Assembly: GCF_003815535.1 (NCBI RefSeq)
Contig: NZ_RPFZ01000001.1
Coordinates: 2,418,001 to 2,482,000, forward strand
Direction: 5' to 3'
From: Aurantiacibacter spongiae
Lineage (GTDB): Bacteria > Pseudomonadota > Alphaproteobacteria > Sphingomonadales > Sphingomonadaceae
Length of the DNA: 64,000 nucleotides
Position numbers and translations under genes: made by a program. A model generated the notes under the pieces. The model was not told where the DNA came from and ran no database searches. It was given only the letters and a program-made list of their open reading frames with translations. Positions 29,215 to 45,763 of this stretch are shown in pieces. The stretch's first letter is position 1. Each line of letters begins with the position of its first letter.

Positions 29215-30606
29215 TCAGTTCGGTCTGTTCGATAGCAGACGATAGCCCCACGCCGGCAGCGTTATGTGATCCCGGGACGCAAGGTTCACCTCTTCGCCGC
29301 TGGCAAAATCGCGATAGGTGCCGGCTGCGTGAGCATCGAGGAGCATCGCGTCCACCGGCTCGGCGGAAAGATTGAACAGACCGACGACCTTGTTGTCCCC
29401 TTCCTGCCTGACCCATGCGAACAGCTGCCGCGGCTTGTCGCTCACCACCTGGCTTATGCGCGCCCCCCAGCGACCGTTCTCGAGCGCCGGATTGGCCTTT
29501 CGAAAGTCGATCAGCCTCGCAAGCAGGTCGCCATAGGCGCAATCGTCTCCCTGGCTCCAGTCGATTGGATCTTTCTCGAAGAATTCCAGTCGTTTGGCGT
29601 TGCAAGCTTCCATGCCGTTATAGATGAGGGGTAGCCCCTCGTTGGTGAAGCTGAGAGCCGTCATCGCACCCAGCGCGGGACCGAAATTCTCGTACATGGT
29701 GCCTTCCCAGGCATTGCTGTCGTGGTTGGCGATGTAGGTCATTCGCATGGCGCTGGCGGGCCAGGCGCTCTCGTTCTCGGCGTAATATCCATAGAGCGCG
29801 GTCGCATCCGCCTCTCCGGCCGCGATCTGCTTGATAGTCTGGTGCCATTCCCACGCGTAGACCGCATCGAAAGCCTTGCGGACCATCTCGGAAGATTTCC
29901 ATTCGGCCAGCATGAAGACCGGCTTGATCGCTTCCAGCCGTTCGCGTTCGGTCTCCCAGAAGTCGAGCGGGACGTATCCCGCCACGTCAGCGCGGTATCC
30001 GTCTACATCGAATTTGCGCACCCAGTATTCCATCGCCTCCCCGACATGCTGGCGCACACCCGGTTTGGACCAGTCGAGATCGATGATGTCCGACCAGTCC
30101 CACCAGGGAGTCGGGCGGAAGTCGCCTTTCCAGTCCTTCTCGTACCAGTCGGGATGATCGTAGCGCAGCTCGTTGTCCCAGGCGGTATGATTGGCGACGA
30201 GATCGAGGATGACGTGAAATCCCTGGGCGTGCGCAGCGTCGATGAAGGTCTTCAGATCCTGTTCGGTGCCCAGTTCCGGGTTTACCGCGAAATAGTCGCG
30301 CACCGAATACGGGCTTCCCAACGTGCCCTTGCGGTTCTCCTCCCCGATGGGATGGATCGGCATGAGCCATAGGATGTCGACGCCAAGCGCCTTCAGTCGG
30401 GGCAGTTCCCGCTGGGCTGCGGCGAAGGTTCCTTCAGGTGTGAACTGGCGAGTGTTGATCTGATAGAGCACTGCGTCGCGCGACCAGGCGGGATTTTCGA
30501 TGGTTGCGTAGGGTCGGGGTTGCCACGGATCGGCGTCCTGTGCGGCGGTGGGGACGAGGGGTAGGTAAAGGGCAGCGAGGGTCAGGGCGAGAGCGAACTT
30601 AGGCAA
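29215..30606 (-). CDS. GH13 family alpha-amylase, exported
   Basis: A 463-residue GH13 enzyme with a signal peptide (PKFALALTLAALYLPLVPTAAQ). Conserved GH13 regions: region I DLVANHTAWD, region II VDGYRADVAG (nucleophile Asp), region III FMLAEWKS (acid Glu), region IV YIANHDSNAWEG (Asp). It should cleave alpha-1,4-glucans in the periplasm. The start is a TTG at 30606 with GGAGA 7 bases upstream; no suitable ATG exists. It overlaps the 3' end of the MFS gene by 8 bases, so both are one operon under the LacI-type operator candidate upstream. Confidence 0.93.
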   Translation of the reverse strand: MPKFALALTLAALYLPLVPTAAQDADPWQPRPYATIENPAWSRDAVLYQINTRQFTPEGTFAAAQRELPRLKALGVDILWLMPIHPIGEENRKGTLGSPYSVRDYFAVNPELGTEQDLKTFIDAAHAQGFHVILDLVANHTAWDNELRYDHPDWYEKDWKGDFRPTPWWDWSDIIDLDWSKPGVRQHVGEAMEYWVRKFDVDGYRADVAGYVPLDFWETERERLEAIKPVFMLAEWKSSEMVRKAFDAVYAWEWHQTIKQIAAGEADATALYGYYAENESAWPASAMRMTYIANHDSNAWEGTMYENFGPALGAMTALSFTNEGLPLIYNGMEACNAKRLEFFEKDPIDWSQGDDCAYGDLLARLIDFRKANPALENGRWGARISQVVSDKPRQLFAWVRQEGDNKVVGLFNLSAEPVDAMLLDAHAAGTYRDFASGEEVNLASRDHITLPAWGYRLLSNRPN

Positions 30607-32128
30607 GAGCGGTCTCCGTGGGGGTCGAGGGCAGGGCAGCCGCGACGCGAAGCATGGCGCCGGCCGCGATCAGGAAGGTGACGGCGGCGAACAGCATCGT
30701 CCACACCGGCTCGCCCGGGAAGAAGGCCTGCATGATCGATCCCATCACCGTTGCCACCAGCAGCTGCGGCACGACGACGAAGATGTTGAACAGGCCCATG
30801 TAGATGCCGAGCTTGGCTTGCGGCAGGTTGCTGGCGAGAATGGCGTAGGGCATGGCGAGAATGCTTGCCCAGGCTATGCCGATTCCGATCTCTGCCACGA
30901 GCAGCACCTGCGCATCCCGTACGAAGAAGAACATCAGGAAGCCGACCGCGCCGGCAGTGAGGCAGATGGAATGCGTCGCTACCTGCCCGAAGCGACGGCT
31001 CATGGCGGGCAGCAAGGCGAGGGCGGCAATGGCGGCGATGCCGTTATAGACCGTGAACAGCACGTTCACCCAGTTCGCGCCCTCGTTATAGGCAATGCTC
31101 GTCGTATCGGTGCTGCCGAAGACGTACTGGGTTACGACGGGCGTGGTGTTGATCCACATGATGAACAACGCCGACCAGCTGAAGAACTGCACGACGGCGA
31201 GACGCTTCATCACCTCCGGCATGCCGGAGAAATCGCCGACGATGCTCGAGAGCATGTTGGCCGCCTTCCCCCGCCGGGCCAGTGCGATCGCAACCGCGCT
31301 CAGCACTCCGTAGAGCGCCAAGAGCGCGCCGAGAAGAAGCACTTCCTTTTCGAGGTCGAGCAGACCTACGAGCAGCGCGACAACGGCGCCCAGCACTATC
31401 CAGGCGCCGCTCGATAGGTAGGATTTTTCCGCCAGCATCGACGCCGGCGGCGCTTCGGCAACCTTGCCGTCTCCGGCCGCGAACGCGGCCTGTTCGTCCG
31501 GGCTGTATTCGCGGGTCGTCACCACCGTCCAGACGACCGCAGCCAGGAGCGCGACCGATCCGGCCCAGAAACTCCAGCGCACGGTATCGGGGATGCCACC
31601 GCCGGGTGCCACGTTGGCGATGCCGAGATGTTCGAGCACGAAGGGAAATATCGACCCGACCACCGCGCCGGTGCCGATGAACGCGGTCTGCACCGCATAA
31701 CCGGCGGCGTGCTGATCGGTGCGCAGCATGTCCCCCACGAAGGCGCGGAACGGCTCCATCGAAATGTTGAGCGAGGCGTCTAGCACCCACAGCATCGCGG
31801 CGGCAAAGATCAGCGGCGCGCCGAACGCAGGTGAGAGCGGCATCACGAACAGGGCGACGGCTGCGAGAACCGCGCCTGTCAGGATATAGGGGCGACGCCG
31901 CCCAAGCCGGTTCCAGGTACGATCGGACAGATGACCGATGACCGGCTGTACCAGCAGCCCGGTGAGCGGGGCCGCGACCCAGAGCGCCGGGAGGTCGTCC
32001 ATGCTGGCGCCCAGGGTCTGGAAGACGCGGCTCATGTTCGCGTTCTGCAGGGCGAAGCCGATCTGGATGCCGAAGAAGCCGAAACTGATGTTCCAAAGGC
32101 CCCAGAAGCCCTGGCGCGGCTTTTCCAT
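30599..32128 (-). CDS. SLC45-type MFS sugar transporter
   Basis: A 509-residue MFS protein with twelve predicted membrane segments. The N-terminus (GFWGLWNISFGFFGIQIGFALQNANMSRVFQTLGA) and the PVIGHLSDRTWNRLGRRRPYIL loop, an extended MFS motif with an RRRPY run, are typical of the SLC45/sucrose-maltose symporter group found in sphingomonad and Caulobacter carbohydrate loci. It would import the glucose or maltose released in the periplasm. The ATG at 32128 follows AAAGGA-like purines. It is the first gene of the MFS-GH13 operon. Confidence 0.9.
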   Translation of the reverse strand: MEKPRQGFWGLWNISFGFFGIQIGFALQNANMSRVFQTLGASMDDLPALWVAAPLTGLLVQPVIGHLSDRTWNRLGRRRPYILTGAVLAAVALFVMPLSPAFGAPLIFAAAMLWVLDASLNISMEPFRAFVGDMLRTDQHAAGYAVQTAFIGTGAVVGSIFPFVLEHLGIANVAPGGGIPDTVRWSFWAGSVALLAAVVWTVVTTREYSPDEQAAFAAGDGKVAEAPPASMLAEKSYLSSGAWIVLGAVVALLVGLLDLEKEVLLLGALLALYGVLSAVAIALARRGKAANMLSSIVGDFSGMPEVMKRLAVVQFFSWSALFIMWINTTPVVTQYVFGSTDTTSIAYNEGANWVNVLFTVYNGIAAIAALALLPAMSRRFGQVATHSICLTAGAVGFLMFFFVRDAQVLLVAEIGIGIAWASILAMPYAILASNLPQAKLGIYMGLFNIFVVVPQLLVATVMGSIMQAFFPGEPVWTMLFAAVTFLIAAGAMLRVAAALPSTPTETALA

Positions 32129-32220
32129 TATGGTCGTCCTTTCCCGAACGGCCGGACGAACTTGGTGCCGCCCTTGCCGTGCGCGTGACGGGTCGCATGA
32201 AAATACGCCGTCCGCCAACA

Positions 32221-32234
32221 TGTATACGAATGTA
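32221..32234. promoter_or_regulatory. Candidate LacI-family operator upstream of MFS-GH13
   Basis: TGTATACGAATGTA lies between the divergent ends of the MFS gene and the lacI gene. Its left half TGTATACG is identical to a site at 34165 upstream of the TonB receptor. LacI-family operators are imperfect palindromes centred on CG, and TGTATA-CG-NATNNN fits this. These are the only two TGTATACG sequences I found outside the tRNA gene. Confidence 0.6.
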
Positions 32235-32254: not shown

Positions 32255-33289
32255 TCAGGCGACGGTGCTGCCGCGCACGATAAGGCGCGTCGGCAGGCGG
32301 TTGTCGGGTCGGTCGCGTTCTTCGATCTGCGCCATCAGAGTTTCGAGCAGGCGCTCCCCGGCGCCCTTGATATCCTGCATGATCGTGGTGAGCGGCGGGC
32401 TGGTGAGACTGGCGGCGGGTATATCGTCGAAACCGACCACCGCCACGTCGTCGGGCACGCTGCGACCGGCTTCCGCCAATGCGCGCAGCGCTCCTATGGC
32501 GATGAGGTCGCTCGCGGCGAATATCGCGTCGAACACCTTGCCCGACGCCAGCAGACGGCAAACCGCATCGTAGCCTGCTTCTTCCGTGGTTATCGCATCC
32601 ATGCGCAGGGCGGGATCGGCATCGATGCCCGCTTTCCCCATCGCCTCCACCAGCCCGCGATAGCGTCCGTCGAATTCCGGACAGTCCTCCCCCACTTCGC
32701 CGATGAAGGCGATGTCGCGCCGGCCGAGACCGGCAAGATGCTCGCCTGCCTGCCGCCCGGCCCCGACATTGTCCGAACCCACCGTCGGCCCCCAGAGGTC
32801 GCGGCTGACCGAACCCCAGCGGGCGTAATGCGTGCCGTGATCCTCCAGTTCCGCGAGGCGCGCGGTATAGGCGGTGTAGTCGCCATAGCCGAGTAGGATG
32901 AGGCCGTCCGCCCGGTGACTGTCCTGATAGCGAGCGTGCCAGTCATCCTCCATCTTCTGAAAGGAAATCAGCAGGTCCAGCCCGCGATTGGCGCAGGCGC
33001 GGGTGATGGACCCCAGCATGGCCAGGAAGAACGGGTTTATCATGCTGTCGTCGGGCGTCGGATCCTCGAAGAACAGCAGCGCGATGGTGTTCGATCGCTG
33101 AGAGCGCAGCGAAGACGCGTTCTTGTCGACCGTATAGTTGAGTTCATCGGCGATCTTGCGGATACGCAAGCGCGTCGCCTCGGACACGGACCTGTCTCCG
33201 CGCAGCGCCCTGCTGACCGTCGGCTGAGAAACGCCGGCAAGATAAGCAATGTCGAAACTGGTTGGCTTGCCAGTTGGTGGACGTCCCAT
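32255..33289 (-). CDS. LacI-family transcriptional regulator of the sugar locus
   Basis: A 344-residue regulator. The N-terminal HTH (FDIAYLAGVSQPTVSRALRGDRSVSEATRLRI) is typical LacI. A periplasmic-binding-protein-like effector domain follows from about residue 60 (SNTIALLFFEDP to PTRLIVRGST). It binds DNA as a dimer and usually releases it on binding a sugar or oligosaccharide. The ATG at 33289 gives MGRPPTGKPTSFD; the open frame upstream is shadow. Its own stop faces the TGTATACG site; the DUF6445 gene is divergent, 128 bases away. Confidence 0.94.
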   Translation of the reverse strand: MGRPPTGKPTSFDIAYLAGVSQPTVSRALRGDRSVSEATRLRIRKIADELNYTVDKNASSLRSQRSNTIALLFFEDPTPDDSMINPFFLAMLGSITRACANRGLDLLISFQKMEDDWHARYQDSHRADGLILLGYGDYTAYTARLAELEDHGTHYARWGSVSRDLWGPTVGSDNVGAGRQAGEHLAGLGRRDIAFIGEVGEDCPEFDGRYRGLVEAMGKAGIDADPALRMDAITTEEAGYDAVCRLLASGKVFDAIFAASDLIAIGALRALAEAGRSVPDDVAVVGFDDIPAASLTSPPLTTIMQDIKGAGERLLETLMAQIEERDRPDNRLPTRLIVRGSTVA

Positions 33290-33417
33290 GAACCTGATCC
33301 CAGCGATCCGTCTCCCTTGCGGACCTGACGAGGATGCTACCCCATGCATGCCGATAAGAAAACCACGGCGAAAGGGGGTGGGCCGAGTGTGTCCGCAAGG
33401 ATACAGCGACAAGCGTC

Positions 33418-34110
33418 ATGACATCACCTCTTGCCCTTTCCGATCGGGCGCGGACCCATGTGCGCACCTTCGGCAGCGAGCAACAACCCGTCCTCGTGGT
33501 CGACGACGTGCTGGCGGACCTGTCCCTGGTTCGGGGAATCGCTGCCAGGCACAGCTTCCGACCCATCGGACCGCACTATCCGGGAATCCGCGCGGCCGTT
33601 TCCGAAAGGGTGGTCATGCCACTCGCCGATCCCCTGACGGCACTGCTGACAGAAATCTTCGCGCTCGATCGCGCGCCGCATTACGCCGAATGCTTCCTTT
33701 CCGTCGTCACCAAGGGGGGCGGAGATCTCGCGCCGATTCAGCGTCTGCCGCATTTCGATGGAACCGAACGGGGCCGGATTGCCGTGCTTCTCTACCTGGG
33801 CGATACCGAGACGCACGGTACCGGCTTCTATCGCCAGCGGTCCACCGGCTTCGAAAGCGTCACGGCCGATCGGTTCGCCGCTTACGAGAAGGCCCTGCGC
33901 GATGGTGTTGCCGAACATGGCTTGCCGGTCGGTTATATCGGCGAAGGCAATGCCCTGTTCGACCGTATATTCGCGGTCCGGGGACGCGCGAACCGCCTGA
34001 TCGCCTATCGCGGGAACACCTTGCATTGCGCCGCGCTGCCCGAAGGATTTGCGCCCGACGCCGACCCGCGCCGCGGGCGTTTGACACTCAACCTGTTCCT
34101 GTCCGCCTGA
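33418..34110 (+). CDS. DUF6445 family protein, putative Fe(II)/2OG oxygenase-like
   Basis: A 230-residue cytosolic protein of the DUF6445 type. LPHFDGTERGRIAVLLYLGDTE contains an HxD pair; NTLHCAALPEGFAPD and DPRRGRLTLNLFL contain a further His and an Arg. In the order HxD...H...R this resembles a double-stranded beta-helix non-haem iron oxygenase. No activity is known to me. Such genes recur beside TonB receptors and flavin halogenase-like genes in sphingomonads and Caulobacter, which is also the case here. It is divergent from lacI and upstream of the TonB receptor. Confidence 0.75.
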   Translation: MTSPLALSDRARTHVRTFGSEQQPVLVVDDVLADLSLVRGIAARHSFRPIGPHYPGIRAAVSERVVMPLADPLTALLTEIFALDRAPHYAECFLSVVTKGGGDLAPIQRLPHFDGTERGRIAVLLYLGDTETHGTGFYRQRSTGFESVTADRFAAYEKALRDGVAEHGLPVGYIGEGNALFDRIFAVRGRANRLIAYRGNTLHCAALPEGFAPDADPRRGRLTLNLFLSA

Positions 34111-34164: not shown

Positions 34165-34178
34165 TGTATACGTATGCT
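34165..34178. promoter_or_regulatory. Candidate LacI-family operator upstream of the TonB receptor
   Basis: TGTATACGTATGCT shares TGTATACG with the site at 32221 and contains the exact palindrome GTATACGTAT core (ATACGTAT). It lies about 140 bases before the receptor start. The LacI-type regulator encoded at 32255-33289 is the obvious candidate to bind it. Confidence 0.6.
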
Positions 34179-34318: not shown

Positions 34319-37168
34319 ATGAAAACTCGCTCCATGCTTCGCGCCGGCACCAGCACCGCCGCCTTCGTGCTCGCAACGGTGACGCTGACCGCGCCGACGC
34401 TGGCGCAGGAGGCGTCCATCGACCCCAACGACACCACCGTATCCGAAGATGATCCAGGCGATCCGCAGAGCGAGGCGATCGTCGTCACCGGTTTCCGCCA
34501 GGCGCTGGAAACCGCGATAAACACCAAGCGCGAGGCATCGGTCATCGTCGAGGCGTTCAGCGCCGAGGACATCGGCAAGCTGCCCGACATCTCCATCGCG
34601 GAGACGCTGGGACGGCTGCCGGGCCTCGCAGTCCAGCGTATCGACGGACGCGCGCAAAGCCTGTCGATCCGCGGCCTGGGGCCCGATTATTCGACCTCGC
34701 TGCTCAACGGCCGCCAGCTTGTCTCTTCCGGTGACAACCGCGCCGTGGAATATGACCAGTATCCGTCCGAACTGATCGACAGCGGCGTCGTCTACAAGAC
34801 ACCCTATGCCGGCCTCATCGGGCAGGGGCTGGCTGGCACGGTCGACCTGCGCACGATCCGTCCGCTGGCGAAGAACGAACAGATCATCAATGTCAGTGGC
34901 CGCCTCGAATTCAACGAGGACGGTTCGCTCAATCCCGATATCGATGGCTGGGGCTGGCGTGCGACGGGCACCTATGTCGACCAGTTTGCGGACGATACGC
35001 TCGGCGTGGCGATGGGCGTCGCCTACCAGTCCAGCCCGACGCAGGTGGAGCGCTTCAATTCATGGGGCTATCCGCAGCTTTCCGATGGTGACGTGGCCGG
35101 CGGCGTGGCCCCCGCCGGCAGCGCCGGAACCACCGTGCTCGGCGGCATGAAGCCCTACGCCCGATCGGTCGAGCTCAACCGCTTGGGGGTATTCGGCACG
35201 CTGGAATGGCAGCCGAGCCTGGCGCTCAACACCACGCTCGATGTCTTCTATGCGGACTATCGCGAGAAGATTCCGCAACGCGGCATCGAATTTCCGCTCA
35301 ATCCCGGTTGGGGCGCGACCGACCGCGTGACCGAAGTGAGCGATCCGGGCCAGTTCGCGCAGAGTGCGACCTTTGCCGGCGTGCAACCGGTGGTCCGCAA
35401 CGACTTCGACCGCAAGGATACCGAGACCTTCGCGATCGGCTGGAACACCAAGTACGAAAACGACGCGGTGCTTCTCGATTTCGACGTGGCCTATTCGAGC
35501 GCGGATCGGCGGCTTCAGCAGATTGAGAGCTATTCCGGACTCAGTTATGCAGCGAGCGGTTCGGTATCCGATACCGTCACCTACAACCGCCAGTCGAGCG
35601 GCTTCCCATTCCAGTTCTCGAACACGATCGACTATTCCGACACCAACCTCATCCAGCTCACCGATCCGCGCGGGTGGGGCGCGAACGGTATCGTCCAGGC
35701 CGGTTTCATCAACGACACGGCGACCGAAGACGAGTTGTGGACCGCGAAGGCCGAAGCCGCCTTCCCGGTGCGCGATGCCTTCATCGGCCAGGTGGTACTC
35801 GGTTTCGCCTATGACGACCGTACGAAATCGCGCGATATCACGCAGAACTTCCTGAGCCTGGCCGGCGGTCCTTCGGTCTATGCCGGACAGGGTGCCGTTA
35901 CCCGCCTGCCCATTCCGGACGACGCCCTGCTCGATCCGACCGCGGCGCTCGGCTTCCTCGGGCTGGGGCCGCAGGTCGCCTACGATCCCTTCGTTCTGCT
36001 GGAAGACGGCACCTACGTCCTGACCGACGTGCAGAGTTCGGATTTGCCCTTTCCGGGCGACTGGACGGTGAACGAGAAGGTCTACACGGGCTATGCCCGG
36101 CTGGACATCGACGCGATGCTCGGGCGGATGCCGGTAACGGGCAATGTCGGTGTGCAGTTCGTCCATACCGATCAGAGCTCGACCGGCTTCAGTTCGCCCG
36201 GCGGCATCGGGGCGACGCGCATCCCGACCGAAGGCGGCGACACTTATCTGGATATCCTGCCCAGTGCGACGCTGAATTTCGAGGTGGGACCGGACACGAT
36301 CGTGCGTCTCGGCGCGGCGCGCACGCTGGCCCGTCCCCGGATGGACCAGCTCAACGCCTCGTCCAACGCCTCCATCGGCAATCAGCCGCAAGGCTCGCTC
36401 GCGTCGATCTTCAGCGGCGGCGGCGGCAATCCGGAACTGCGGCCCTACATCGCCGACAGCGTGGACCTATCGGCCGAGCACTACTTCGCCAACGACGGCT
36501 ACATCGCGCTGGCGACCTATTACAAATGGCTCGATGACTTCGTGAACCCGAATGCTTCGGTCCTGCGTGATTTCAGCTATCTGGTACCTTCGCTGACCGG
36601 CGCACAGCTTGACGCTTTCCGTGCCAGCGGCGGGCAGACGCTGGGCTTCGTGAGCGGGCCGGATAATGGCGCGTCCGGTCACATCTTCGGGGTCGAGGCG
36701 AGCCTCGCCCTGCCGCTCTCGGTCCTGGCCAGCACGTTCGATGGCTTCGGCTTCCAGACGAGCGTTTCCTTCACCGACAGCAACCTGACGGTCACTCCGC
36801 CCAGCGGCGATCCGTTCGATACCGACGTGCCGGGCCTGTCGAAATGGGTGGTCAACTCGACCGTCTTCTATGAAAATTCAGGCTTCGAAGCGCGCCTCAG
36901 CCATCGCTACCGAACCGAATTTCTCGCCGAATTCATCGGCATTTCGGCCAGCCGGACCTTCCGCGAGACGCGCCCCGAATCGATCTTCGACGCCCAGATC
37001 GGCTACCGCTGGGAAAGTGGCCCGCTCGACGGGCTGGGCATAACCCTCCAGGCGCTGAACCTGACGGACGAACCGTTCATCAGCTTCCAGAACGGCGACG
37101 AGGAGCAGATCATCGATTACGAGCGCTACGGTCGCACCTACCTGATCGGGGCGTCCTACCGCTTCTGA
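34319..37168 (+). CDS. TonB-dependent receptor, starch/maltodextrin locus
   Basis: A 949-residue outer-membrane receptor. Signal peptide MKTRSMLRAGTSTAAFVLATVTLTAPTLAQ, a TonB box-like SEAIVVTGFRQ near residue 52, and the plug domain (about 60-200, EDIGKLPDISIAETLGRLPGLAVQRIDGR and LSIRGLGPDYS). A 22-stranded barrel follows, ending in the aromatic ILIGASYRF-type terminus. The VxVTGFRxAL and DIGKLPD plug type is that of carbohydrate-transporting receptors in Caulobacter and sphingomonads such as the maltose receptor MalA. It should import oligosaccharides. It is the first gene of the run that ends at 45763. Confidence 0.94.
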   Translation: MKTRSMLRAGTSTAAFVLATVTLTAPTLAQEASIDPNDTTVSEDDPGDPQSEAIVVTGFRQALETAINTKREASVIVEAFSAEDIGKLPDISIAETLGRLPGLAVQRIDGRAQSLSIRGLGPDYSTSLLNGRQLVSSGDNRAVEYDQYPSELIDSGVVYKTPYAGLIGQGLAGTVDLRTIRPLAKNEQIINVSGRLEFNEDGSLNPDIDGWGWRATGTYVDQFADDTLGVAMGVAYQSSPTQVERFNSWGYPQLSDGDVAGGVAPAGSAGTTVLGGMKPYARSVELNRLGVFGTLEWQPSLALNTTLDVFYADYREKIPQRGIEFPLNPGWGATDRVTEVSDPGQFAQSATFAGVQPVVRNDFDRKDTETFAIGWNTKYENDAVLLDFDVAYSSADRRLQQIESYSGLSYAASGSVSDTVTYNRQSSGFPFQFSNTIDYSDTNLIQLTDPRGWGANGIVQAGFINDTATEDELWTAKAEAAFPVRDAFIGQVVLGFAYDDRTKSRDITQNFLSLAGGPSVYAGQGAVTRLPIPDDALLDPTAALGFLGLGPQVAYDPFVLLEDGTYVLTDVQSSDLPFPGDWTVNEKVYTGYARLDIDAMLGRMPVTGNVGVQFVHTDQSSTGFSSPGGIGATRIPTEGGDTYLDILPSATLNFEVGPDTIVRLGAARTLARPRMDQLNASSNASIGNQPQGSLASIFSGGGGNPELRPYIADSVDLSAEHYFANDGYIALATYYKWLDDFVNPNASVLRDFSYLVPSLTGAQLDAFRASGGQTLGFVSGPDNGASGHIFGVEASLALPLSVLASTFDGFGFQTSVSFTDSNLTVTPPSGDPFDTDVPGLSKWVVNSTVFYENSGFEARLSHRYRTEFLAEFIGISASRTFRETRPESIFDAQIGYRWESGPLDGLGITLQALNLTDEPFISFQNGDEEQIIDYERYGRTYLIGASYRF

Positions 37169-37174
37169 CAGGGC

Positions 37175-37228
37175 GGACCGGCGGGAGGCCTTGCTCCTCC
37201 CTGAAAAAATGGGGTTTCCCGCCGGTCC
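37175..37228 (+). repeat. Large stable hairpin between TonB receptor and halogenase gene
   Basis: GGACCGGCGGGA (37175-37186) and TCCCGCCGGTCC (37217-37228) form a perfect 12-bp inverted repeat around a 30-base loop. The outer bases GACA/TGTC (37167-37170 and 37229-37232) can extend the stem across a four-base bulge. It begins 7 bases after the receptor stop and lacks a trailing U-run, so it is more likely an mRNA-stabilising or partial-termination element inside the operon than a full terminator. Confidence 0.7.
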
Positions 37229-37288
37229 TGTCTCGCCCCGCTCACCCGCTTCGCTATGGTTGCGGGCAGGACGTGGAAGGACAGCGCG

Positions 37289-38803
37289 ATGACCGACAGG
37301 CCCATCACCCGATACTGCATCGCCGGCGGGGGAACCGCCGGCTGGATGGCGGCCGCCGCGCTCGCCCGCTTTCTGCCCGGCGGCCACACGGTCGAACTGG
37401 TCGAGAGCGAAGCGATCGGTACGGTCGGCGTGGGTGAAGCGACCATTCCGCAAATTCACCTGTTCAACGGCGCGCTGGGGCTCGATGAGGCCGAGTTCCT
37501 GCGCGAGACGAAGGGGAGCATCAAGCTCGGCATCGAGTTCGACGGCTGGCTCCGCGAGGGAGCGGCGTACATGCACGCTTTCGGCAATATCGGCCGGAGC
37601 GCGGGCCTGCTGCCGTTCCAGCACTACTGGTTGCGCGCGCACGCGCTTGGCTTCGCCAAACCACTCCAGCGCTACTCGCTCAACGAACTGGCGGGGCGCA
37701 CCATGCGGATGCAGCGCGGGAAAACCGCGGGAGGGCAGGAGATGCCCTACGCCTACCATTTCGATGCCGCTTTATATGCGCGTTACCTGCGACGCTTCGC
37801 CGAGGAGCGCGGCGTGACCAGGTACGAGGGACGGATCGAACAGGTCGAACGCGCCGGGCAGAGCGGGGATATCTCCGCGCTCCTACTTGACGGCGACAGG
37901 CGGATCGAAGCCGATTTTTTCATCGACTGCACCGGTTTTCGCGGTCTGCTGATCGAAGGCGCACTGGAAACGGGCTTCGAGGATTGGAGCGACTGGCTTC
38001 CCTGCGACCGCGCGCTGGCCGTGGCGTGCGAGGGCGGCGGTGATTTCACCCCCTATACCCGCTCGATCGCGCGACCCGCGGGTTGGCAGTGGCGCATTCC
38101 CTTGCAGCACCGGCTGGGCAACGGACTGGTCTACTGCTCCGCCCAGTGGTCCGACGATGAAGCCGCCGAGACGCTGCTGGCCAATCTCGACGGTGCGCCG
38201 CAGACCGATCCGCGTCCGATCCGCTTCACTACCGGCACGCGCCGCCGTCACTGGAACCGCAATTGTCTCGCGCTGGGGCTGGCGGCGGGGTTCATGGAGC
38301 CGCTCGAATCGACCAGCATTCATCTCGTGCAGAGTGCCATCAGCCGCTTCCTCGCGGTTCTGCCCCACGCCGCGCCCGATCCGGCGATCGTCGGCTGGTT
38401 CAACCAGCAGGCGCGGTTCGAATGGGAGCGCATTCGCGATTTCCTCATCCTGCATTACACTGCGAACGACCGTGTGGGGCAGCCTTTCTGGGATCAGGTT
38501 CGCACCATGATCCCGCCCGATACCCTGACCGCCAAACTCGACCAGTGGCGCGCCACCGGTTTCATTCACCGTGAGCACGAGGAACTGTTCACGGACGTCG
38601 GATGGTTTCAGGTGCTGGTGGGGCAGGGCGTCGCCGCGCGCGGATACAATCGGCTGGCCGACGCCATGCCCGAAGACGACCTTCGCCGCTTTCTCGGCGA
38701 AACCGAACGGGCGCTGATCGAGCAGGTCAAGCCGATGCCGCGCCATCTCGACTTCCTGCGCGATTGCATCGCACGGTCCGAGCGGCAGGGAGTGGACGCG
38801 TGA
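37289..38803 (+). CDS. Flavin-dependent tryptophan halogenase-like protein (1)
   Basis: A 504-residue FAD enzyme. It has the dinucleotide motif GGGTAGW near residue 13, and GSIKLGIEF with the Lys in the position of the halogenase catalytic Lys. GWQWRIP is the GWxWxIP halogenase signature, and FMEPLESTSIH carries the conserved Glu. No signal peptide, so it is cytosolic. Canonical members halogenate tryptophan or other aromatics via HOCl; copies in sugar/TonB loci have unknown substrates. The next gene overlaps its stop (GTGA), coupling it to starch enzymes. Family assignment is strong, substrate unknown. Confidence 0.88.
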   Translation: MTDRPITRYCIAGGGTAGWMAAAALARFLPGGHTVELVESEAIGTVGVGEATIPQIHLFNGALGLDEAEFLRETKGSIKLGIEFDGWLREGAAYMHAFGNIGRSAGLLPFQHYWLRAHALGFAKPLQRYSLNELAGRTMRMQRGKTAGGQEMPYAYHFDAALYARYLRRFAEERGVTRYEGRIEQVERAGQSGDISALLLDGDRRIEADFFIDCTGFRGLLIEGALETGFEDWSDWLPCDRALAVACEGGGDFTPYTRSIARPAGWQWRIPLQHRLGNGLVYCSAQWSDDEAAETLLANLDGAPQTDPRPIRFTTGTRRRHWNRNCLALGLAAGFMEPLESTSIHLVQSAISRFLAVLPHAAPDPAIVGWFNQQARFEWERIRDFLILHYTANDRVGQPFWDQVRTMIPPDTLTAKLDQWRATGFIHREHEELFTDVGWFQVLVGQGVAARGYNRLADAMPEDDLRRFLGETERALIEQVKPMPRHLDFLRDCIARSERQGVDA

Positions 38804-40644
38804 GCGCATTGCGATGCCTTGCCGCCATGCTGCTTCCCGCGCTCGCGAGCTGTGCGACAATGCGCGATGCGACGCCTTCGCCGACCCCGTCCGGCGCGGC
38901 CTATCTGGCGCGGGAACCATCGGAGGAGGTGGTCTATTTCGTCCTCCCCGATCGGTTCGAAAACGGGAATAGCGTCAACGATACCGGCGGCCTTGCGGGG
39001 GATCGCCTGTCGACCGGATACGATCCTGGCGCACAAGGTTTCTTTCACGGCGGCGATATGGCGGGTCTGACATCCCGGCTCGATTACCTCGAACGCCTCG
39101 GCATTACCGCGATCTGGTTCGCGCCGATCTTCCAGAACAAGGCCGTGCAGGGTCCGCCGGGCGAGGAGAGCGCCGGCTATCACGGTTACTGGGTCACGGA
39201 CTTTACCCGCCCCGACAGCCATTTCGGGACGAGGGAGGAGTTCGCGCAGTTTGTCGATGCCGCTCATGCCCGCGGCATGAAGGTCTACATGGACATCATC
39301 ACCAATCACACCGCCGACGTCATTCGCTACGCGGATGGGGACGAGACCAATTACGAGTATCGCAGCCGCGGCGACTATCCCTATTCCACGCGGGGCGGGC
39401 CCGACGGGCCACCCATCAACACGGGCTTTGGCGGAGACACGGATTCGAGCGAAGCCAATTTCGCGAAGCTGGTGAACCCCGACTACGCCTATGTCCCCAT
39501 GGTGCCGGAAGCCGAACGCACCGTGAAGGTACCGGCCTGGCTCAACGATCCGATCTATTACCACAACCGGGGCAACAGCAGCTTTACCGGGGAAGACAGC
39601 CGGTTTGGCGATTTTTCCGGACTGGACGACCTTTTCACCGAACATCCGCGCGTGCGGGCCGGCATGCAGGACATCTACTGCACCTGGATCTCCGATACCC
39701 GCGTGGACGGCTTTCGCATCGATACGGCGCGCCACGTCGACCCCGGCTTCTGGCGCGCTTTCGTGCCGGCGATGGAAGGCTGCGCAGAGCGCGTGGGCAT
39801 CGTCAACTTCCACATGTTCGGCGAGGTCTACAAGGACGTGCCGGAAAACGGCTACATCGCCGAATATACCCGGCGCGACAAATTGCCGGCCGTGCTCGAT
39901 TTCGCGTTCCAGGCGTCGATGCGAAATGTGCTGGGGCGCGGCTCGGGGACCGTGGTTCTGGCCCAGCTTTTCGATGGCGACGTGCTGTATGACGGCGGAG
40001 AAGACACCGCACGAACCCTGCCGACATTCCTCGGCAATCATGACATGGGCCGTTTCGCGACGCTGATCCGCGAAGATATGCCCGGCATCTCGCAGCAGGA
40101 ATTGCTGGCGCGAACGATGCTTGGCCACGCCATGATGCTGACGCTTCGCGGCAGCCCGGTGATCTATTACGGGGACGAACAGGGTTTCGTGGGAGATGGG
40201 GGCGATCAACTGGCACGCGAGGACATGTTTCCCAGTCGAACGGCAGTCTATAACGACAATGACCTCCTTGGTACGGACGCGACGACCGTGCAGTCCAATT
40301 TCGACGAGACTCATCCCCTCTATCGCCTGATTGCCCGGTTCAGCGCGATCAGGCGCGCGCATTCCGCCTTCACCCGGGGCGGGCAGCAGGTCCGCCACTA
40401 CGAGCAGGAACCCGGCCTGTTCGCCGTGAGCCGGTTCGATCCCGAGGACGGAACAGAATATCTGGCCGTGTTCAACACGGCGGCATCGCCGCGTGCAGCG
40501 AATATCTGGCTGGACTACGACGCGAGAACCTTCGAGGCGCTGGCGGGGGCGTGTCCCGACAGGGTCAGCGCTCCGGGCAGCGCGGCATTTTCGCTGCCCG
40601 CATTCGGCTGGGCGGTATGCCGCGTAAGCGAGAGCGCGCGATGA
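38800..40644 (+). CDS. GH13 family alpha-amylase, lipoprotein
   Basis: A GTG start at 38800 overlaps the previous stop. The 614-residue product has a lipobox (CLAAMLLPALASC, Cys near residue 18) and GH13 regions: DIITNHTADV (I), VDGFRIDTARH with nucleophile Asp (II), HMFGEVYK with acid Glu (III), FLGNHDMGRF (IV). Insertions such as GGPDGPPINTGFGGDTDSSE near 200 are typical of the periplasmic or surface alpha-amylases of this group. It would cleave starch or maltodextrins at the outer membrane. Confidence 0.93.
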   Translation: MSALRCLAAMLLPALASCATMRDATPSPTPSGAAYLAREPSEEVVYFVLPDRFENGNSVNDTGGLAGDRLSTGYDPGAQGFFHGGDMAGLTSRLDYLERLGITAIWFAPIFQNKAVQGPPGEESAGYHGYWVTDFTRPDSHFGTREEFAQFVDAAHARGMKVYMDIITNHTADVIRYADGDETNYEYRSRGDYPYSTRGGPDGPPINTGFGGDTDSSEANFAKLVNPDYAYVPMVPEAERTVKVPAWLNDPIYYHNRGNSSFTGEDSRFGDFSGLDDLFTEHPRVRAGMQDIYCTWISDTRVDGFRIDTARHVDPGFWRAFVPAMEGCAERVGIVNFHMFGEVYKDVPENGYIAEYTRRDKLPAVLDFAFQASMRNVLGRGSGTVVLAQLFDGDVLYDGGEDTARTLPTFLGNHDMGRFATLIREDMPGISQQELLARTMLGHAMMLTLRGSPVIYYGDEQGFVGDGGDQLAREDMFPSRTAVYNDNDLLGTDATTVQSNFDETHPLYRLIARFSAIRRAHSAFTRGGQQVRHYEQEPGLFAVSRFDPEDGTEYLAVFNTAASPRAANIWLDYDARTFEALAGACPDRVSAPGSAAFSLPAFGWAVCRVSESAR

Positions 40645-42233
40645 GCGGAGCCGACGATGCTCTCCCCTGGTGGAAAGGCGCGACGATCTACCAGATCTAT
40701 CCGCGCAGTTTCATGGACAGCGACGGCGACGGGGTGGGCGATCTGCCTGGCATCACTCGGCGGCTGGACCATGTGGCGAAGCTCGGCGTGGACGCAATCT
40801 GGGTGTCGCCCTTCTTCCGTTCGCCGATGAAGGACTTCGGATATGACGTCGCCGATTACCGGGACGTGGATCCACTGTTCGGATCGCTTGCCGATTTCGA
40901 CGCGATGGTGGGGAGGGCGCACGAGCTGGGCCTGAAGGTGTTGATCGACCAGGTCTATTCGCATACGTCCGACGAGCACGAATGGTTCACGCAAAGCCGT
41001 TCGAGCCGCGATAACGCCAAGGCGGACTGGTATGTGTGGGCCGATGCCAAGCCGGACGGTTCTCCACCTTCGAACTGGCAGTCGGTGTTCGGCGGGCCGG
41101 CCTGGACCTGGGATGCGCGGCGGGGGCAGTATTACCTGCACAACTTCCTCGCCTGCCAGCCACAGCTCAATCTGCACCAGGCCGCGGTGCAGGACGCAGT
41201 GCTGGATGTCATGCGCTTCTGGCTGGATCGCGGCGTCGACGGCTTTCGTATCGATGCGCTCAACTTCGCGATGCACGATCCCATGCTGCGCGACAATCCG
41301 CCCGCTCCGCCGAACGGGCGGCAGCGCACCCGACCGTTCGATTTCCAGCGGCGCATCTACAATCAGTCACACGCCGACATTCCGGCCTTCGTTAAACGCA
41401 TCCGCCGCCTGACCGACCGCTATCAGGCGATCTTCACCGTCGCCGAGGTAGGCGGGGATGATGCCGATGCGGAGATGAAGGCGTTTACCGCGGGAGAAAG
41501 CCACCTCAATTCCGCCTATGGGTTCGACTTTCTCTACGCCGAGGCCCTCACCCCGCAACTGGTGTGCGAAGCCCTGTCCCACTGGCCGGACGAGACCGGC
41601 ATGGGTTGGCCGAGCTGGGCGTTCGAGAACCACGATGCGCCTCGCGCCCTGTCACGCTGGTGCGCCCCCGCCCATCGCGATGCCTTTGCGCGAATGAAGA
41701 TGCTGCTTTTGGCCTGCCTGCGGGGCAACATCATCCTCTATCAGGGGGAGGAGCTGGGGTTGACGCAGGTCGACATACCCTTCGACCAGCTCCACGATCC
41801 GGAGGCCATCGCCAACTGGCCCCTCACGCTCAGCCGCGACGGTGCGCGCACGCCGATGCCGTGGGAAGCGCGCAGCAATTGCGGTGGCTTCGGGAGCGGT
41901 GAGCCCTGGCTTCCGCTGGGCGAGGACAATCACCGGCGCGCCGTCGATACGCAAGAGGGCGATCCGGCTTCGCTGCTACACCACACCCGCGCTGCCCTGC
42001 AATTGCGCAACAACAACCCCGCGCTCCACCGCGGTTCCGTCGCGAACTGCAGGGCCGGGGAAACGCTGCTCGACCTGACGCGCGCGGGCGATGGTCAGCG
42101 GGTGCGGTGTCTGTTCAACATGGGTAGCAACCCTGTCACGTTGAACGATGCGCAGGGACGGATCCTTGCCGGCGTGAACGGGGCCGACACTCGCATATTG
42201 CCGCCTTTCGGTGCGCTCATTCTGGAGATTTGA
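40641..42233 (+). CDS. GH13 alpha-glucosidase (oligo-1,6/maltase type), cytosolic
   Basis: A 530-residue GH13 enzyme without signal peptide. DGVGDLPGI is the region V sequence of alpha-glucosidases/oligo-1,6-glucosidases. Catalytic blocks are DQVYSHTSDEH (I), VDGFRIDALNF (II), FTVAEVGGDD (III) and FENHDAPR (IV). It should release glucose from imported maltose or short oligosaccharides in the cytosol. The ATG overlaps the previous stop (ATGA) and the next gene starts 3 bases after its stop. Confidence 0.93.
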   Translation: MSGADDALPWWKGATIYQIYPRSFMDSDGDGVGDLPGITRRLDHVAKLGVDAIWVSPFFRSPMKDFGYDVADYRDVDPLFGSLADFDAMVGRAHELGLKVLIDQVYSHTSDEHEWFTQSRSSRDNAKADWYVWADAKPDGSPPSNWQSVFGGPAWTWDARRGQYYLHNFLACQPQLNLHQAAVQDAVLDVMRFWLDRGVDGFRIDALNFAMHDPMLRDNPPAPPNGRQRTRPFDFQRRIYNQSHADIPAFVKRIRRLTDRYQAIFTVAEVGGDDADAEMKAFTAGESHLNSAYGFDFLYAEALTPQLVCEALSHWPDETGMGWPSWAFENHDAPRALSRWCAPAHRDAFARMKMLLLACLRGNIILYQGEELGLTQVDIPFDQLHDPEAIANWPLTLSRDGARTPMPWEARSNCGGFGSGEPWLPLGEDNHRRAVDTQEGDPASLLHHTRAALQLRNNNPALHRGSVANCRAGETLLDLTRAGDGQRVRCLFNMGSNPVTLNDAQGRILAGVNGADTRILPPFGALILEI

Positions 42234-42236
42234 ACC

Positions 42237-44279
42237 ATGCGCCTAGCCACTGCCGCCCTCGTCACCGCTCTCACGCTGGGCACCTCGCACGCGGTTCTCG
42301 CCGGCACCGTCTTATCGCCCGATGGGCGTATCGAGGCCACGCTCGACGTGGATGGGGAGGGCAAGCCGATCTGGTCCGTCACTCGCGATGGCGAAGTCCT
42401 GATCGCTCCGTCCGCGCTCGGTTTCAACCTGGAGAACGAAGATCCCCTGCGGCGCAACTTCGCGATCGTGGCCGAGGAAACCGACAGCGCCGATACCACT
42501 TGGGAGCAGCCTTGGGGAGAGCGGCAATTCGTCACCGACCGCCATAACGAGCTCGCCGCCACGTTCCGCCAGCAGGACGATGCCGCGCGCCAGTTCACCG
42601 TGCGGATGCGGGTTTTCGATGACGGGGTCGGGTTTCGCTACGAACTGCCCGCACAGCCCGCTCATCCCGAAACGCGCATCGCCGAGGAGCTGACCGAATT
42701 CACCATCGCCCCCGAGGGCGAGGCGTGGTGGATCCAGGCCGGCGACTGGAACCGCTACGAATATCTTTACAAGAACACCCCCATCGAGGCGGTCAGCGTA
42801 GCGCATACGCCGATCACCTTCCGGCTCGGCGTCGGAACCCATCTCTCGATCCACGAAGCGGCGCTGGTCGACTATTCCGGCATGTGGTTGCAACGCATGG
42901 ACGAGCGCCGCTTCCGGGCGACGCTCGCACCCTCCAGTCGCGGAGCCAAGGTCGTTCGCAGCGGCGCCTTCACCACGCCCTGGCGCACCGTAAGGATCGC
43001 CGACGATGCCGCCGGGCTGGTCGAGAACGACCTCGAGCTCAATCTCAACGAGCCGAACAAGCTTGGCGATGTCAGCTGGTTCGAACCCGGCAAATATATC
43101 GGCATCTGGTGGGGCATGATTTCGAACCGCTGGACATGGGCACAGGGGCCGCGCCACGGTGCCACGACCGAACGGACGAAGGACTATATCGACTTCGCGG
43201 CGGAAAACGGCTTTCGCGGCGTGCTGGTCGAGGGTTGGGACCAGGGTTGGGATGGAACCTGGTTCGGCAACGGACGCGACTTCAGCTTCACCGAGGCCTA
43301 TCCCGATTTCGATATCGAGGAAGTGACGGATTACGCCCGGTCCAAGGGAGTGCATCTGATCGGCCATCACGAGACGGGCGGCAACATCGCGAATTACGAA
43401 GCGCAACTGGCCGATGCGATGGCGCTTTACGGTAGGCTCGGCGTCGACGTGGTCAAGACCGGCTACGTGGCTGACGCAGGATCCATCATCAGTTGCAATG
43501 CCGACATCGCGGCGCCGTGCGAAGGGCAGGTCATGGAATGGCACGATGGCCAGCGGCAGGTTCAGCATCATCTGCGCGTGGTCGAGGAGGCGGCGAGGAA
43601 TCGCATCGCCGTCAATCCGCACGAGCCGGTGAAGGATACAGGGCTTCGCCGCACCTATCCCAACTGGGTCGCTCGCGAGGGTGCTCGCGGGCAGGAATAC
43701 AACGCCTGGGGACCGTTCAACAACGGACCCGACCACGAACCGACGCTCGTCTATACCCGGATGCTGTCCGGCCCGATGGACTACACTCCCGGGATCCTGT
43801 CGCTGAAAGGCGATAACGACGTGCCGTTGGCCTCGACGCTTGCGAAGCAGCTGGGACTGTATCTGGCGATCTACTCGCCGATCCAGATGGCGGCCGACTT
43901 CATCGAGAGCCTCGCCGATCATCCGCGCGAACTGGAATTCATTCGCGCCGTACCCACCGACTGGGCGGAAAGCCATCTGATCGCGGGGGAGGTGGGGGAC
44001 TACGCCATCTTCGCCCGCAAGGATCGCAATTCCCAGGACTGGTATGCAGGCGGGGTGAACGACGCCACCGAGCGCCAGGTCACGCTCGACTTCGCATTCC
44101 TCGACCCCGGCAAGACCTATCGCGCCAGCGTATGGAAAGACGGCGAGGATGCCACCTACCTTACCGAAGCGCGCCACTCCATCGCCTACGATGACTTCGA
44201 GGTGCGGGCGGGGGACGAGCACAGCTTTCGACTGGCCCCGGGCGGCGGGCTGGCGATCCGTCTGCAACCGGTCGAGTGA
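42237..44279 (+). CDS. GH97 alpha-glucosidase (SusB-like), exported
   Basis: A 680-residue GH97 enzyme with signal peptide MRLATAALVTALTLGTSHAVLAG. The N-terminal beta-domain (about 25-300) is followed by a barrel with VLVEGWDQGWDG, LIGHHETGGNI, VVKTGYVAD and VNPHEPVKDTGLRRTYPN, then a C-terminal beta-domain. The Glu residues in HHETGG and NPHEPV suggest the inverting, SusB-type mechanism (from memory). It releases glucose from starch oligosaccharides in the periplasm. It lies between the cytosolic GH13 and the second halogenase-like gene. Confidence 0.93.
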   Translation: MRLATAALVTALTLGTSHAVLAGTVLSPDGRIEATLDVDGEGKPIWSVTRDGEVLIAPSALGFNLENEDPLRRNFAIVAEETDSADTTWEQPWGERQFVTDRHNELAATFRQQDDAARQFTVRMRVFDDGVGFRYELPAQPAHPETRIAEELTEFTIAPEGEAWWIQAGDWNRYEYLYKNTPIEAVSVAHTPITFRLGVGTHLSIHEAALVDYSGMWLQRMDERRFRATLAPSSRGAKVVRSGAFTTPWRTVRIADDAAGLVENDLELNLNEPNKLGDVSWFEPGKYIGIWWGMISNRWTWAQGPRHGATTERTKDYIDFAAENGFRGVLVEGWDQGWDGTWFGNGRDFSFTEAYPDFDIEEVTDYARSKGVHLIGHHETGGNIANYEAQLADAMALYGRLGVDVVKTGYVADAGSIISCNADIAAPCEGQVMEWHDGQRQVQHHLRVVEEAARNRIAVNPHEPVKDTGLRRTYPNWVAREGARGQEYNAWGPFNNGPDHEPTLVYTRMLSGPMDYTPGILSLKGDNDVPLASTLAKQLGLYLAIYSPIQMAADFIESLADHPRELEFIRAVPTDWAESHLIAGEVGDYAIFARKDRNSQDWYAGGVNDATERQVTLDFAFLDPGKTYRASVWKDGEDATYLTEARHSIAYDDFEVRAGDEHSFRLAPGGGLAIRLQPVE

Positions 44280-45763
44280 GCGAGCGCCGCCCTCCGCACG
44301 TCGTTGTCTTGGGGGGCGGCAGCGCCGGGTGGATCACCGCCTGCCTGCTGCACCGCGCCTGGCACGAACGGGGCGGACGGGTGACTGTGGTCGAAAGCCC
44401 GGATATCGGCATCGTCGGGGTAGGCGAAGGTTCGACGCCCCAGCTGAAAGCGATGTTCGACCATCTCGGCATCGCGGAAGCCGAATGGATGGCAGCGTGC
44501 GACGCCACCTTCAAGCTGGGTATCCGCTTTACGGGCTGGAGCGAGCGGCCGGGCTTTCAGACCTATTTCCATCCGTTTCCCGGGCCTGTGGACCTTCATA
44601 CCGAACCGGCCTTTGCGCGCAATTGCGCGCTCGCACGACGCGGTTTCGCAATCTCCGCCCTGCCCGACGACTATTTCCTCGCCGCCCGGCTGGCGATGGA
44701 GGGGAAGGGGCCGCGCGCATCCGATACGTTCCCCTTCGCACCCAGCTACGGCTACCATTTTGACGCCTACAGGCTCGGCGCTTTCCTGCGTGACTGGGGG
44801 GTGAGGCGCGGAGTCGATCACCTGTCCCGAACGGTAGACGATGTCGAGATGGCCGCAGACGGGAGCGTCGCGGCCCTGCTATGCGAAGACGGCATCCGCA
44901 TCGATGGCGATATCTTCGTCGATTGTTCGGGTTTTCGCGCCATGATCGCGCAAGGTGCGCTTGGCGCGCGGTATATCAGCTTTTCAGACAATCTGTTCAA
45001 CGACCGAGCCGTCGTGATGCAGACGATGGCAAACCGGGATTGCCACCCGCAGACCGACAGTGTCGCCATGCGCGCGGGCTGGCGCTGGCGCATCCCCCTG
45101 ACGACGCGGGCCGGCAACGGTTATGTCTATTCCTCGCGCCATATCAGCGACGAGGACGCCGAGGCGGAATTGCGTTCCGCGATCGATGCCGGCGCCGACG
45201 TAGATGCGCGCATCGTGCGCATGAAGGTCGGGCGGCTGGAGGAAAGCTGGCAGCAAAACTGTCTCGCGACGGGTCTGGCCCAGGGCTTCATCGAGCCGCT
45301 GGAGGCGACCGCCCTGCATATCGTCATCGCCACGGCCCTCGATTTCGCGCGAAGCTACGAAGAGGGCGGCTTCGGTCCGCGAAACCGCGATGCTTTCAAC
45401 GCCAGGACCGCGATGCGGTATGACGGCATCCGCGACTATATCGTAGCTCATTACCGGATGAACCAGCGCAGCGATACCGCCTACTGGAGGGAGAACGCCG
45501 CGAACGCGGCTCTCTCCGACAATCTCAAGACGATGATGACCGCATGGTTCACTCACCGCGACATCGCATCGGTCAATCGCGAAACCTATGCCGAACCGCC
45601 CTATCCCGCAATGAGCTGGCTGGCGCTGTTCGCGGGATACGGCACCTTTCCACCGCGCGAGAAAGCGCAGGGTCTGCCGCCGCCAGGCAGCGCCGCCGAT
45701 CCGCAGGCGATAACGGACATGCTCACCGCCTGCACCCGCAACTTCGCCCCGGCAACCCGGTGA
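44276..45763 (+). CDS. Flavin-dependent tryptophan halogenase-like protein (2)
   Basis: The GTG at 44276 overlaps the GH97 stop (GTGA). The 495-residue product has GGGSAGW near residue 13, GIVGVGEGSTPQ, ATFKLGIRFTGW with the Lys, GWRWRIP and FIEPLEATALH. It is clearly homologous to the copy at 37289 but divergent from it, so the two were not recently duplicated. No signal peptide. Both catalytic positions known for halogenases (Lys and Glu) are kept. Role in a sugar locus unknown. Confidence 0.88.
   Translation: MSERRPPHVVVLGGGSAGWITACLLHRAWHERGGRVTVVESPDIGIVGVGEGSTPQLKAMFDHLGIAEAEWMAACDATFKLGIRFTGWSERPGFQTYFHPFPGPVDLHTEPAFARNCALARRGFAISALPDDYFLAARLAMEGKGPRASDTFPFAPSYGYHFDAYRLGAFLRDWGVRRGVDHLSRTVDDVEMAADGSVAALLCEDGIRIDGDIFVDCSGFRAMIAQGALGARYISFSDNLFNDRAVVMQTMANRDCHPQTDSVAMRAGWRWRIPLTTRAGNGYVYSSRHISDEDAEAELRSAIDAGADVDARIVRMKVGRLEESWQQNCLATGLAQGFIEPLEATALHIVIATALDFARSYEEGGFGPRNRDAFNARTAMRYDGIRDYIVAHYRMNQRSDTAYWRENAANAALSDNLKTMMTAWFTHRDIASVNRETYAEPPYPAMSWLALFAGYGTFPPREKAQGLPPPGSAADPQAITDMLTACTRNFAPATR

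Follow-up and report, generated by a model that had tools for sequence, protein, structure and literature searches.

Flavin-dependent halogenase homologs as neighbors of TonB-dependent receptors, viewed from a starch-type operon of Aurantiacibacter spongiae

Why should an operon for starch uptake encode two homologs of flavin-dependent tryptophan halogenases? The question is raised by a locus of Aurantiacibacter spongiae (genome of 2.86 Mb), which we analyzed within a window of 64,000 nucleotides, bases 2418001 to 2482000 of contig 1; positions given below are counted within this window. On its forward strand, positions 34319 to 45763 hold a tight series of six genes: a TonB-dependent receptor (TBDR; 34319 to 37168), a first halogenase homolog (H1; 37289 to 38803), a lipoprotein of glycoside hydrolase family 13 (GH13; 38800 to 40644), a second GH13 enzyme (40641 to 42233), a GH97 enzyme (42237 to 44279), and a second halogenase homolog (H2; 44276 to 45763). 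We regard this architecture as virtually certain. The genes form an uptake operon of the starch/maltodextrin type with two coupled flavin halogenase homologs, and the comparisons described here show that what stays constant beside such halogenases is the TBDR and not the set of sugar enzymes.

Pairing of halogenase homologs with TonB-dependent receptors

The TBDR of the operon belongs to the TIGR01782 (TonB-Xanth-Caul) class (NCBIfam score of 551.7 bits; cutoff, 310) and, on the receptor tree, to a starch-type subclade. All eight genes of the halogenase family PF04820 in the A. spongiae genome lay within ~7 kb of TIGR01782 TBDRs, involving four of the five that score above the cutoff. Across 29 genomes of the same family, 55 of 61 PF04820 genes were found no more than 10 kb from a TIGR01782 TBDR, and 40 were found within 3 kb, compared to 0.8 expected under uniform placement. 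The remaining six comprised four on contigs without such a TBDR and two at distances of 17.7 and 161 kb. Seen from the receptors in these genomes, 31 of 90 TBDRs had a halogenase gene within 3 kb. A first set of halogenase loci gave a TBDR within the fetched stretch in 61 of 69 cases (locus L077 included). A held-out set of 20 new loci gave a TBDR of the TIGR01782 general class within 3 kb of the halogenase in 16; at the other four, a TBDR of a different class adjoins it (Oar-like receptors with CarboxypepD_reg and OMP_b-brl_4 domains at L151, L153, and L154 and a Plug-type receptor at L168). Among the best 30 starch-type TBDR matches in 397 genomes of the phylum, 25 had a halogenase within 1.5 kb; a halogenase match at an E value of ≤1e-90 was present in 71 of the 397 genomes in a search that scored only four candidates per genome.

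The glycosidases near the pair differ from locus to locus (GH13/GH97, GH3, GH10, GH16, GH43, or GH95), and the pair itself was found with at least five TBDR groups and six glycoside hydrolase families in both alpha- and gammaproteobacteria. In contrast, the pyrrolnitrin-type cluster of Azotobacter salinestris shows no TBDR annotation within a distance of 6 kb. Other putative modifying enzymes recur around the pairs: a neighbor cluster with SapC as its representative in 15 of 89 loci and, in single-query counts, Cupin_8/JmjC proteins in at least 17 and DUF6445 proteins in at least 13 of 71 loci. The halogenase family is very probably a dedicated TBDR partner, and the adjacency points to a common role.

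The partnership also appears in the phylogeny. Among 120 halogenases with an assignable TBDR subclade, 113 had their nearest foreign-genome halogenase beside the same subclade; when partners were shuffled within genomes, the mean was 71 and the maximum was 91 of 120 (2,000 trials). This shows a long-lived partnership, although inheritance of entire operons alone could yield the same cosegregation.

The starch-type operon itself is conserved in depth. TBDR, H1, both GH13 genes, and GH97 occurred together in 17 fetched loci, of which 11 also had H2 and 6 lacked it; these loci were picked for holding a halogenase, so the count speaks for depth of conservation and says nothing about how frequent it is. 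All six genes, in unchanged order, are present on plasmid plas1 of Qipengyuania citrea E4, where each of the four junctions from H1 to H2 is a 4-base overlap, and Sphingomonas parapaucimobilis has the block without H2. In an uncultured Erythrobacter assembly, an H2 relative lies in pieces (L029:16999-18518), as a result of either assembly error or decay. The original prediction, made from the sequence of the window, had called for a genome search for co-occurrence of glycosidases, TonB receptors, and halogenases; such co-occurrence was found, and the neighborhood extends well beyond close relatives, which speaks against the chance linkage that the prediction had named as its own refutation. 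Its statement that both flavoenzymes are locked to sugar enzymes stands for translational coupling within the starch operon but not for the family, since the glycosidases vary while the TBDR stays and H2 is absent from 6 of the 17 loci.

Several less typical arrangements were noted along the way. Receptors unlike TIGR01782 stand beside halogenases at L077:6604-9126 and L168:11753-14245, and both contain a GYNxxWG segment resembling the main-clade motifs described below. A second, distinct TBDR lies beyond a B-type halogenase in three genomes (L025:10995-13778, L054:12520-15273, and L069:11818-14514). At L151, the Oar-like TBDR that adjoins the halogenase has upstream of it another outer-membrane-protein-like gene of about the same length (L151:13936-16926).

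The two flavoenzymes

H1 and H2 match PF04820 with 600 and 426.8 bits, respectively, and are 31% identical to each other. Both contain the GxGxxG, WxWxIP, catalytic Lys, and catalytic Glu motifs (SIKLG, GWQWRIP, and EPLESTS in H1; TFKLG, GWRWRIP, and EPLEATA in H2). Inspection by eye revealed no signal peptide in either protein. Motif retention and the lack of export had both been predicted from the sequence and are borne out. The best Protein Data Bank (PDB) matches of H1 were 9luq, 6y1w, and 6frl, with E values of 6e-139 for Xcc4156 (6y1w) and 6e-122 for BrvH (6frl) and nearly the whole length aligned end to end; those of H2 were the Trp-6 and Trp-5 halogenases 5hy5 and 2wet. The nearest named relatives of H1 among those fetched, from an uncultured Erythrobacter and Aurantiacibacter luteus, were 73 to 75% identical to it. 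H1 is a BrvH/Xcc4156-type flavin halogenase homolog, and H2 is of a sister type.

The halide loop separates the two. In BrvH and two Xanthomonas campestris enzymes, its second residue is Ser and not Gly, as described in the accessible part of PMC7336383. H1 has the same Thr-Ser loop as BrvH, whereas H2 has Thr-Ala, and in the alignment all 14 H2-like sequences have Ala at the two halide-loop positions. Conservation was assessed over 146 homologs (125 ordinary, 14 H2-like, and 7 of a third group). The catalytic Lys was kept in 119 of the 125 ordinary and in all 14 H2-like homologs, and the counts for Glu were identical. In all seven members of the third group, Lys was replaced by Arg and Glu was replaced by Gly (six members) or Ala (one member), while the first two Gly residues of GxGxxG were kept; these paralogs are conserved, apparently catalytically dead pseudoenzymes. 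Such a paralog was noted at L024:12846-14315 (reverse strand), A. spongiae genome bases 892001 to 893287, and all seven lie within A-type clusters beside active paralogs.

The free-tryptophan halogenases PrnA, RebH, PyrH, and SttH share the fold family and the catalytic residues with H1 and H2. Alignment of H1 to PrnA ends near residue 428 of 538, before the C-terminal Trp-binding region, and alignment of H2 to PyrH runs to residue 472 but does not match residue for residue in that region. Genomic context differs as well: the halogenases here have a TBDR, two GH13 genes, and a GH97 gene as operon neighbors, and, unlike the Azotobacter cluster, the operon has neither a metabolite cluster nor a dedicated flavin reductase. 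Within the text available to us, PMC7336383 and PMC5945002 describe BrvH and Xcc4156 as having an open active site and not accepting free tryptophan, and a peptide substrate is proposed; according to the former, it is not known what BrvH and the X. campestris halogenases act on naturally. H1 and H2 differ from those enzymes in sitting inside a starch operon. Peptide-bound targets are known from related flavoenzymes: QhpG is reported to hydroxylate a peptidyl residue (PMC7876137), and MibH acts on Trp within a peptide, as cited in the part of PMC7336383 available to us. The QhpG model NF049967 gave only 36.3 bits for H1 and 34.5 bits for H2 (cutoff, 240), and the operon contains no Qhp genes and no obvious precursor-peptide gene.

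Candidate substrates

We infer that H1 and H2 serve the receptor as accessory enzymes and are not part of sugar catabolism. The reading that we favor, tentatively, is one of TBDR-dedicated flavoenzymes with a protein substrate: an aromatic group, perhaps one of the TBDR precursor, would be modified in the cytosol. H1 and H2 would work in the cytosol with FADH2 supplied by a general reductase, as the operon encodes none, and would add a halogen or oxygen to an electron-rich aromatic side chain of an uptake-machine protein. The likeliest substrate would be the unfolded TBDR precursor prior to export, the first candidate because the TBDR is the commonest partner in these loci. The Cupin_8/JmjC, DUF6445, and SapC proteins might act alongside, and the modification would tune ligand binding or the stability of exposed loops.

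If a TBDR tryptophan were the substrate, linked TBDRs would be expected to share a Trp that unlinked TBDRs lack. The motif [NDSTG]WG was present in 83% of 59 halogenase-linked and 29% of 59 unlinked TBDRs; six rows had been excluded beforehand (a truncated duplicate, a cut fragment, and four TBDRs of another class, three of them linked and one unlinked). Invariant x-W-G tryptophans were common to the halogenase-linked clades. The starch clade (22 TBDRs) has two conserved tryptophans, in FNAWGY (95%) and LTDPxGWGG (100%), which correspond in the A. spongiae receptor to Trp249 (FNSWGYP; codon at 35063 to 35065, forward strand) and Trp453 (LTDPRGWG; codon at 35675 to 35677, forward strand). The A/B clade (23 TBDRs) has two invariant tryptophans in segments like YNWGMLSEVW, and the C clade (9 TBDRs) has one in segments like LGDWG; 5 of the 59 linked rows fall outside these three clades. 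The A/B and C site was missing from four of five unlinked clades, and one of six rows has it in the fifth (the five clades hold 31 of the 59 unlinked rows). Among held-out linked TBDRs, WG was present in 15 of 16, the exception being L167.

A number of observations weigh against this reading. Eight of the 69 first-set loci (L033, L060, L070, L073, L082, L091, L092, and L093) had no TBDR in the stretch, and three linked TBDRs (L061, L075, and L081) lack the A/B/C tryptophan. With just five to seven changes of linkage on the TBDR tree, the association of the motif mostly reflects clade history; a test of independent pairs on the tree found five pairs and had no power. Moreover, two genomes without a PF04820 match (G313 and G392) retain both tryptophans of the starch-type TBDR, and the A/B-type TBDR of G313 retains its two tryptophans with the following Gly replaced by Gln. 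Likewise, all five of the best 30 starch-type matches that lack a halogenase in the 1.5-kb flank retain both tryptophans, as does the A/B-type TBDR of G263, which has listed halogenases elsewhere in its genome and in which the following Gly is Thr. Thus, the tryptophans persist independently of the enzyme, and co-loss gives the target idea no support. A TBDR structure model built from four sequences was unusable (mean predicted local distance difference test score of 26.3). A TBDR tryptophan as a demonstrated target was not upheld, because the motif follows clade history and Trp is kept where the halogenase is missing. In the alignments, the tryptophans go with the TBDR clade. They may serve as glycan platforms and be modified in genomes that have the enzyme, or they may have nothing to do with it. 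Nor do two tryptophans explain two enzymes: by eye, the motifs are present in starch-type loci with and without H2, and an assignment of one Trp to each halogenase was rejected.

A fuller version of the protein-substrate idea is doubtful in our view. It would have widespread, cytosolic BrvH-type halogenases halogenate or hydroxylate the x-W-G tryptophans of TonB-receptor precursors before export, together with Cupin_8/JmjC, DUF6445, and SapC proteins and, where the cluster has one, a dead halogenase paralog. The modified Trp would then sit in glycan-handling loops of the receptor, and unmodified Trp would still serve in enzyme-free genomes.

As a substrate, a small aromatic metabolite is almost as probable as the TBDR precursor. 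It is possible, if somewhat unlikely, that the enzymes halogenate or hydroxylate indole or another cytosolic aromatic, which might be a signal or might be handled by the TBDR, and that coexpression with glycan TBDRs links output of this molecule to feeding. Small aromatics are the substrates of most characterized relatives, the TBDR could carry the product, and BrvH and Xcc4156 accept free indole (PMC7336383). However, neighbor clustering yielded GH3, SapC, and transporters and no recurrent further biosynthetic gene, and one molecule would have to serve several TBDR classes and glycan enzymes. The aromatic aglycone offered in the original prediction would hardly do as a general substrate, since starch has none. 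The chemistry might also be oxygenation in place of halogenation, in H2 above all, with the fold acting as a flavin monooxygenase on Trp or Tyr side chains. The Ala residues in the H2-like halide loops are consistent with this, and plasmid-borne relatives come also from pond water, lake, soil, and plants, settings in which bromide is scarce. Although QhpG offers a precedent on a peptidyl residue, its profile scores H1 and H2 far below the cutoff, and H1 shares its Thr-Ser pair with BrvH, which brominates in vitro (PMC5945002, in the part available); we consider oxygenation rather improbable. Least probable is the absence of any functional tie, with compact carbohydrate cassettes simply inherited whole. 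That would suffice for the cosegregation of 113 of 120 halogenases, and two genomes of one genus (g53) have starch-type TBDRs and no halogenase at all, but it sits poorly with a pair that recurs across so many receptor groups, glycosidase families, and two proteobacterial classes and with the placement of every PF04820 gene of A. spongiae by a TIGR01782 TBDR.

The surrounding locus and the meaning of the pairing

Reading of the DNA confirmed the predicted gene order and junctions: GTGA at 38800, ATGA at 40641, a 3-base gap at 42234 to 42236, and GTGA at 44276. The TBDR and H1 do not overlap and are separated by a 120-base gap containing an 18-bp hairpin (37166 to 37230, forward strand; -35.8 kcal/mol, z score of -3.44, equaled by 0 of 200 shuffles), which is very stable and perhaps sets TBDR expression apart from that of the downstream genes. 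The GH13 lipoprotein (PF00128, 203.8 bits) has a Leu-Ala-Ser-Cys lipobox by eye, the second GH13 enzyme (PF00128, 390.6 bits) has no apparent signal peptide, and the GH97 enzyme (PF10566, PF14508, and PF14509) has an apparent one by eye. The predicted inventory of six genes was correct but overlooked the gene immediately upstream of that for the TBDR, a DUF6445 member (33418 to 34110, forward strand; PF20043, 215 bits) encoding a putative Fe(II)/2-oxoglutarate oxygenase. H112, D114, H203, and R221 are invariant among 13 aligned DUF6445 members, an HxD...H...R pattern that we take to be typical of such oxygenases, and the profile found no credible relative in the PDB (best E value, 1.5). A palindromic core, ATACGTATGC, occurs once in the window, at 34168 to 34177 upstream of the TBDR; it is present upstream of several related TBDRs and is a possible regulator site.

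A divergent arm on the reverse strand encodes a LacI-family regulator (32255 to 33412; Pfam LacI and Peripla_BP_3), a major facilitator superfamily sugar transporter (30599 to 32221; MFS_1, 56.7 bits), and a further GH13 enzyme (29215 to 30606; PF00128, 108 bits). Downstream of H2 lies a convergent gene with methionine-synthase domains. The Pfam scan of 15 window proteins gave no SusD family member, the surface lipoprotein that would sit beside the receptor in a SusCD-type locus. The gene content is instead that of the carbohydrate utilization loci containing TBDRs (CUT loci) of Xanthomonas and Caulobacter, which likewise combine a TBDR, glycosidases, an inner-membrane transporter, and a LacI-type regulator (PMC1790865). 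The words halogenase, tryptophan, SapC, and hydroxylase do not occur in the text of that paper, and the word TonB is absent from the text of the BrvH and Xcc4156 papers (PMC5945002 and PMC7336383). Both "tryptophan halogenase" and "TonB-dependent receptor" occur in PMC11337851, whose accessible part describes no linkage of the genes, and in PMC3377617. Systematic pairing of halogenases with TBDRs was not found in the open-license literature; subscription journals lie mostly outside it, so the pairing may be published elsewhere. The locus had been put forward as an undescribed system. That holds, within the same literature, for the TBDR pairing; the enzyme family (BrvH and Xcc4156), the lack of an assigned native substrate, and the proposal that a peptide is acted on have already been published, in the portions of those papers available to us.

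The locus is thus a case of a conserved TonB-receptor accessory and not a starch-specific novelty. Quantified, clade-specific pairing with TBDRs narrows the substrate question for BrvH and the X. campestris halogenases to the receptor, its operon partners, or a coexpressed metabolite. Should the substrate be a protein, that would amount to a novel type of modification for outer-membrane transporters. The family itself is an established one; the pairing renders its function testable.

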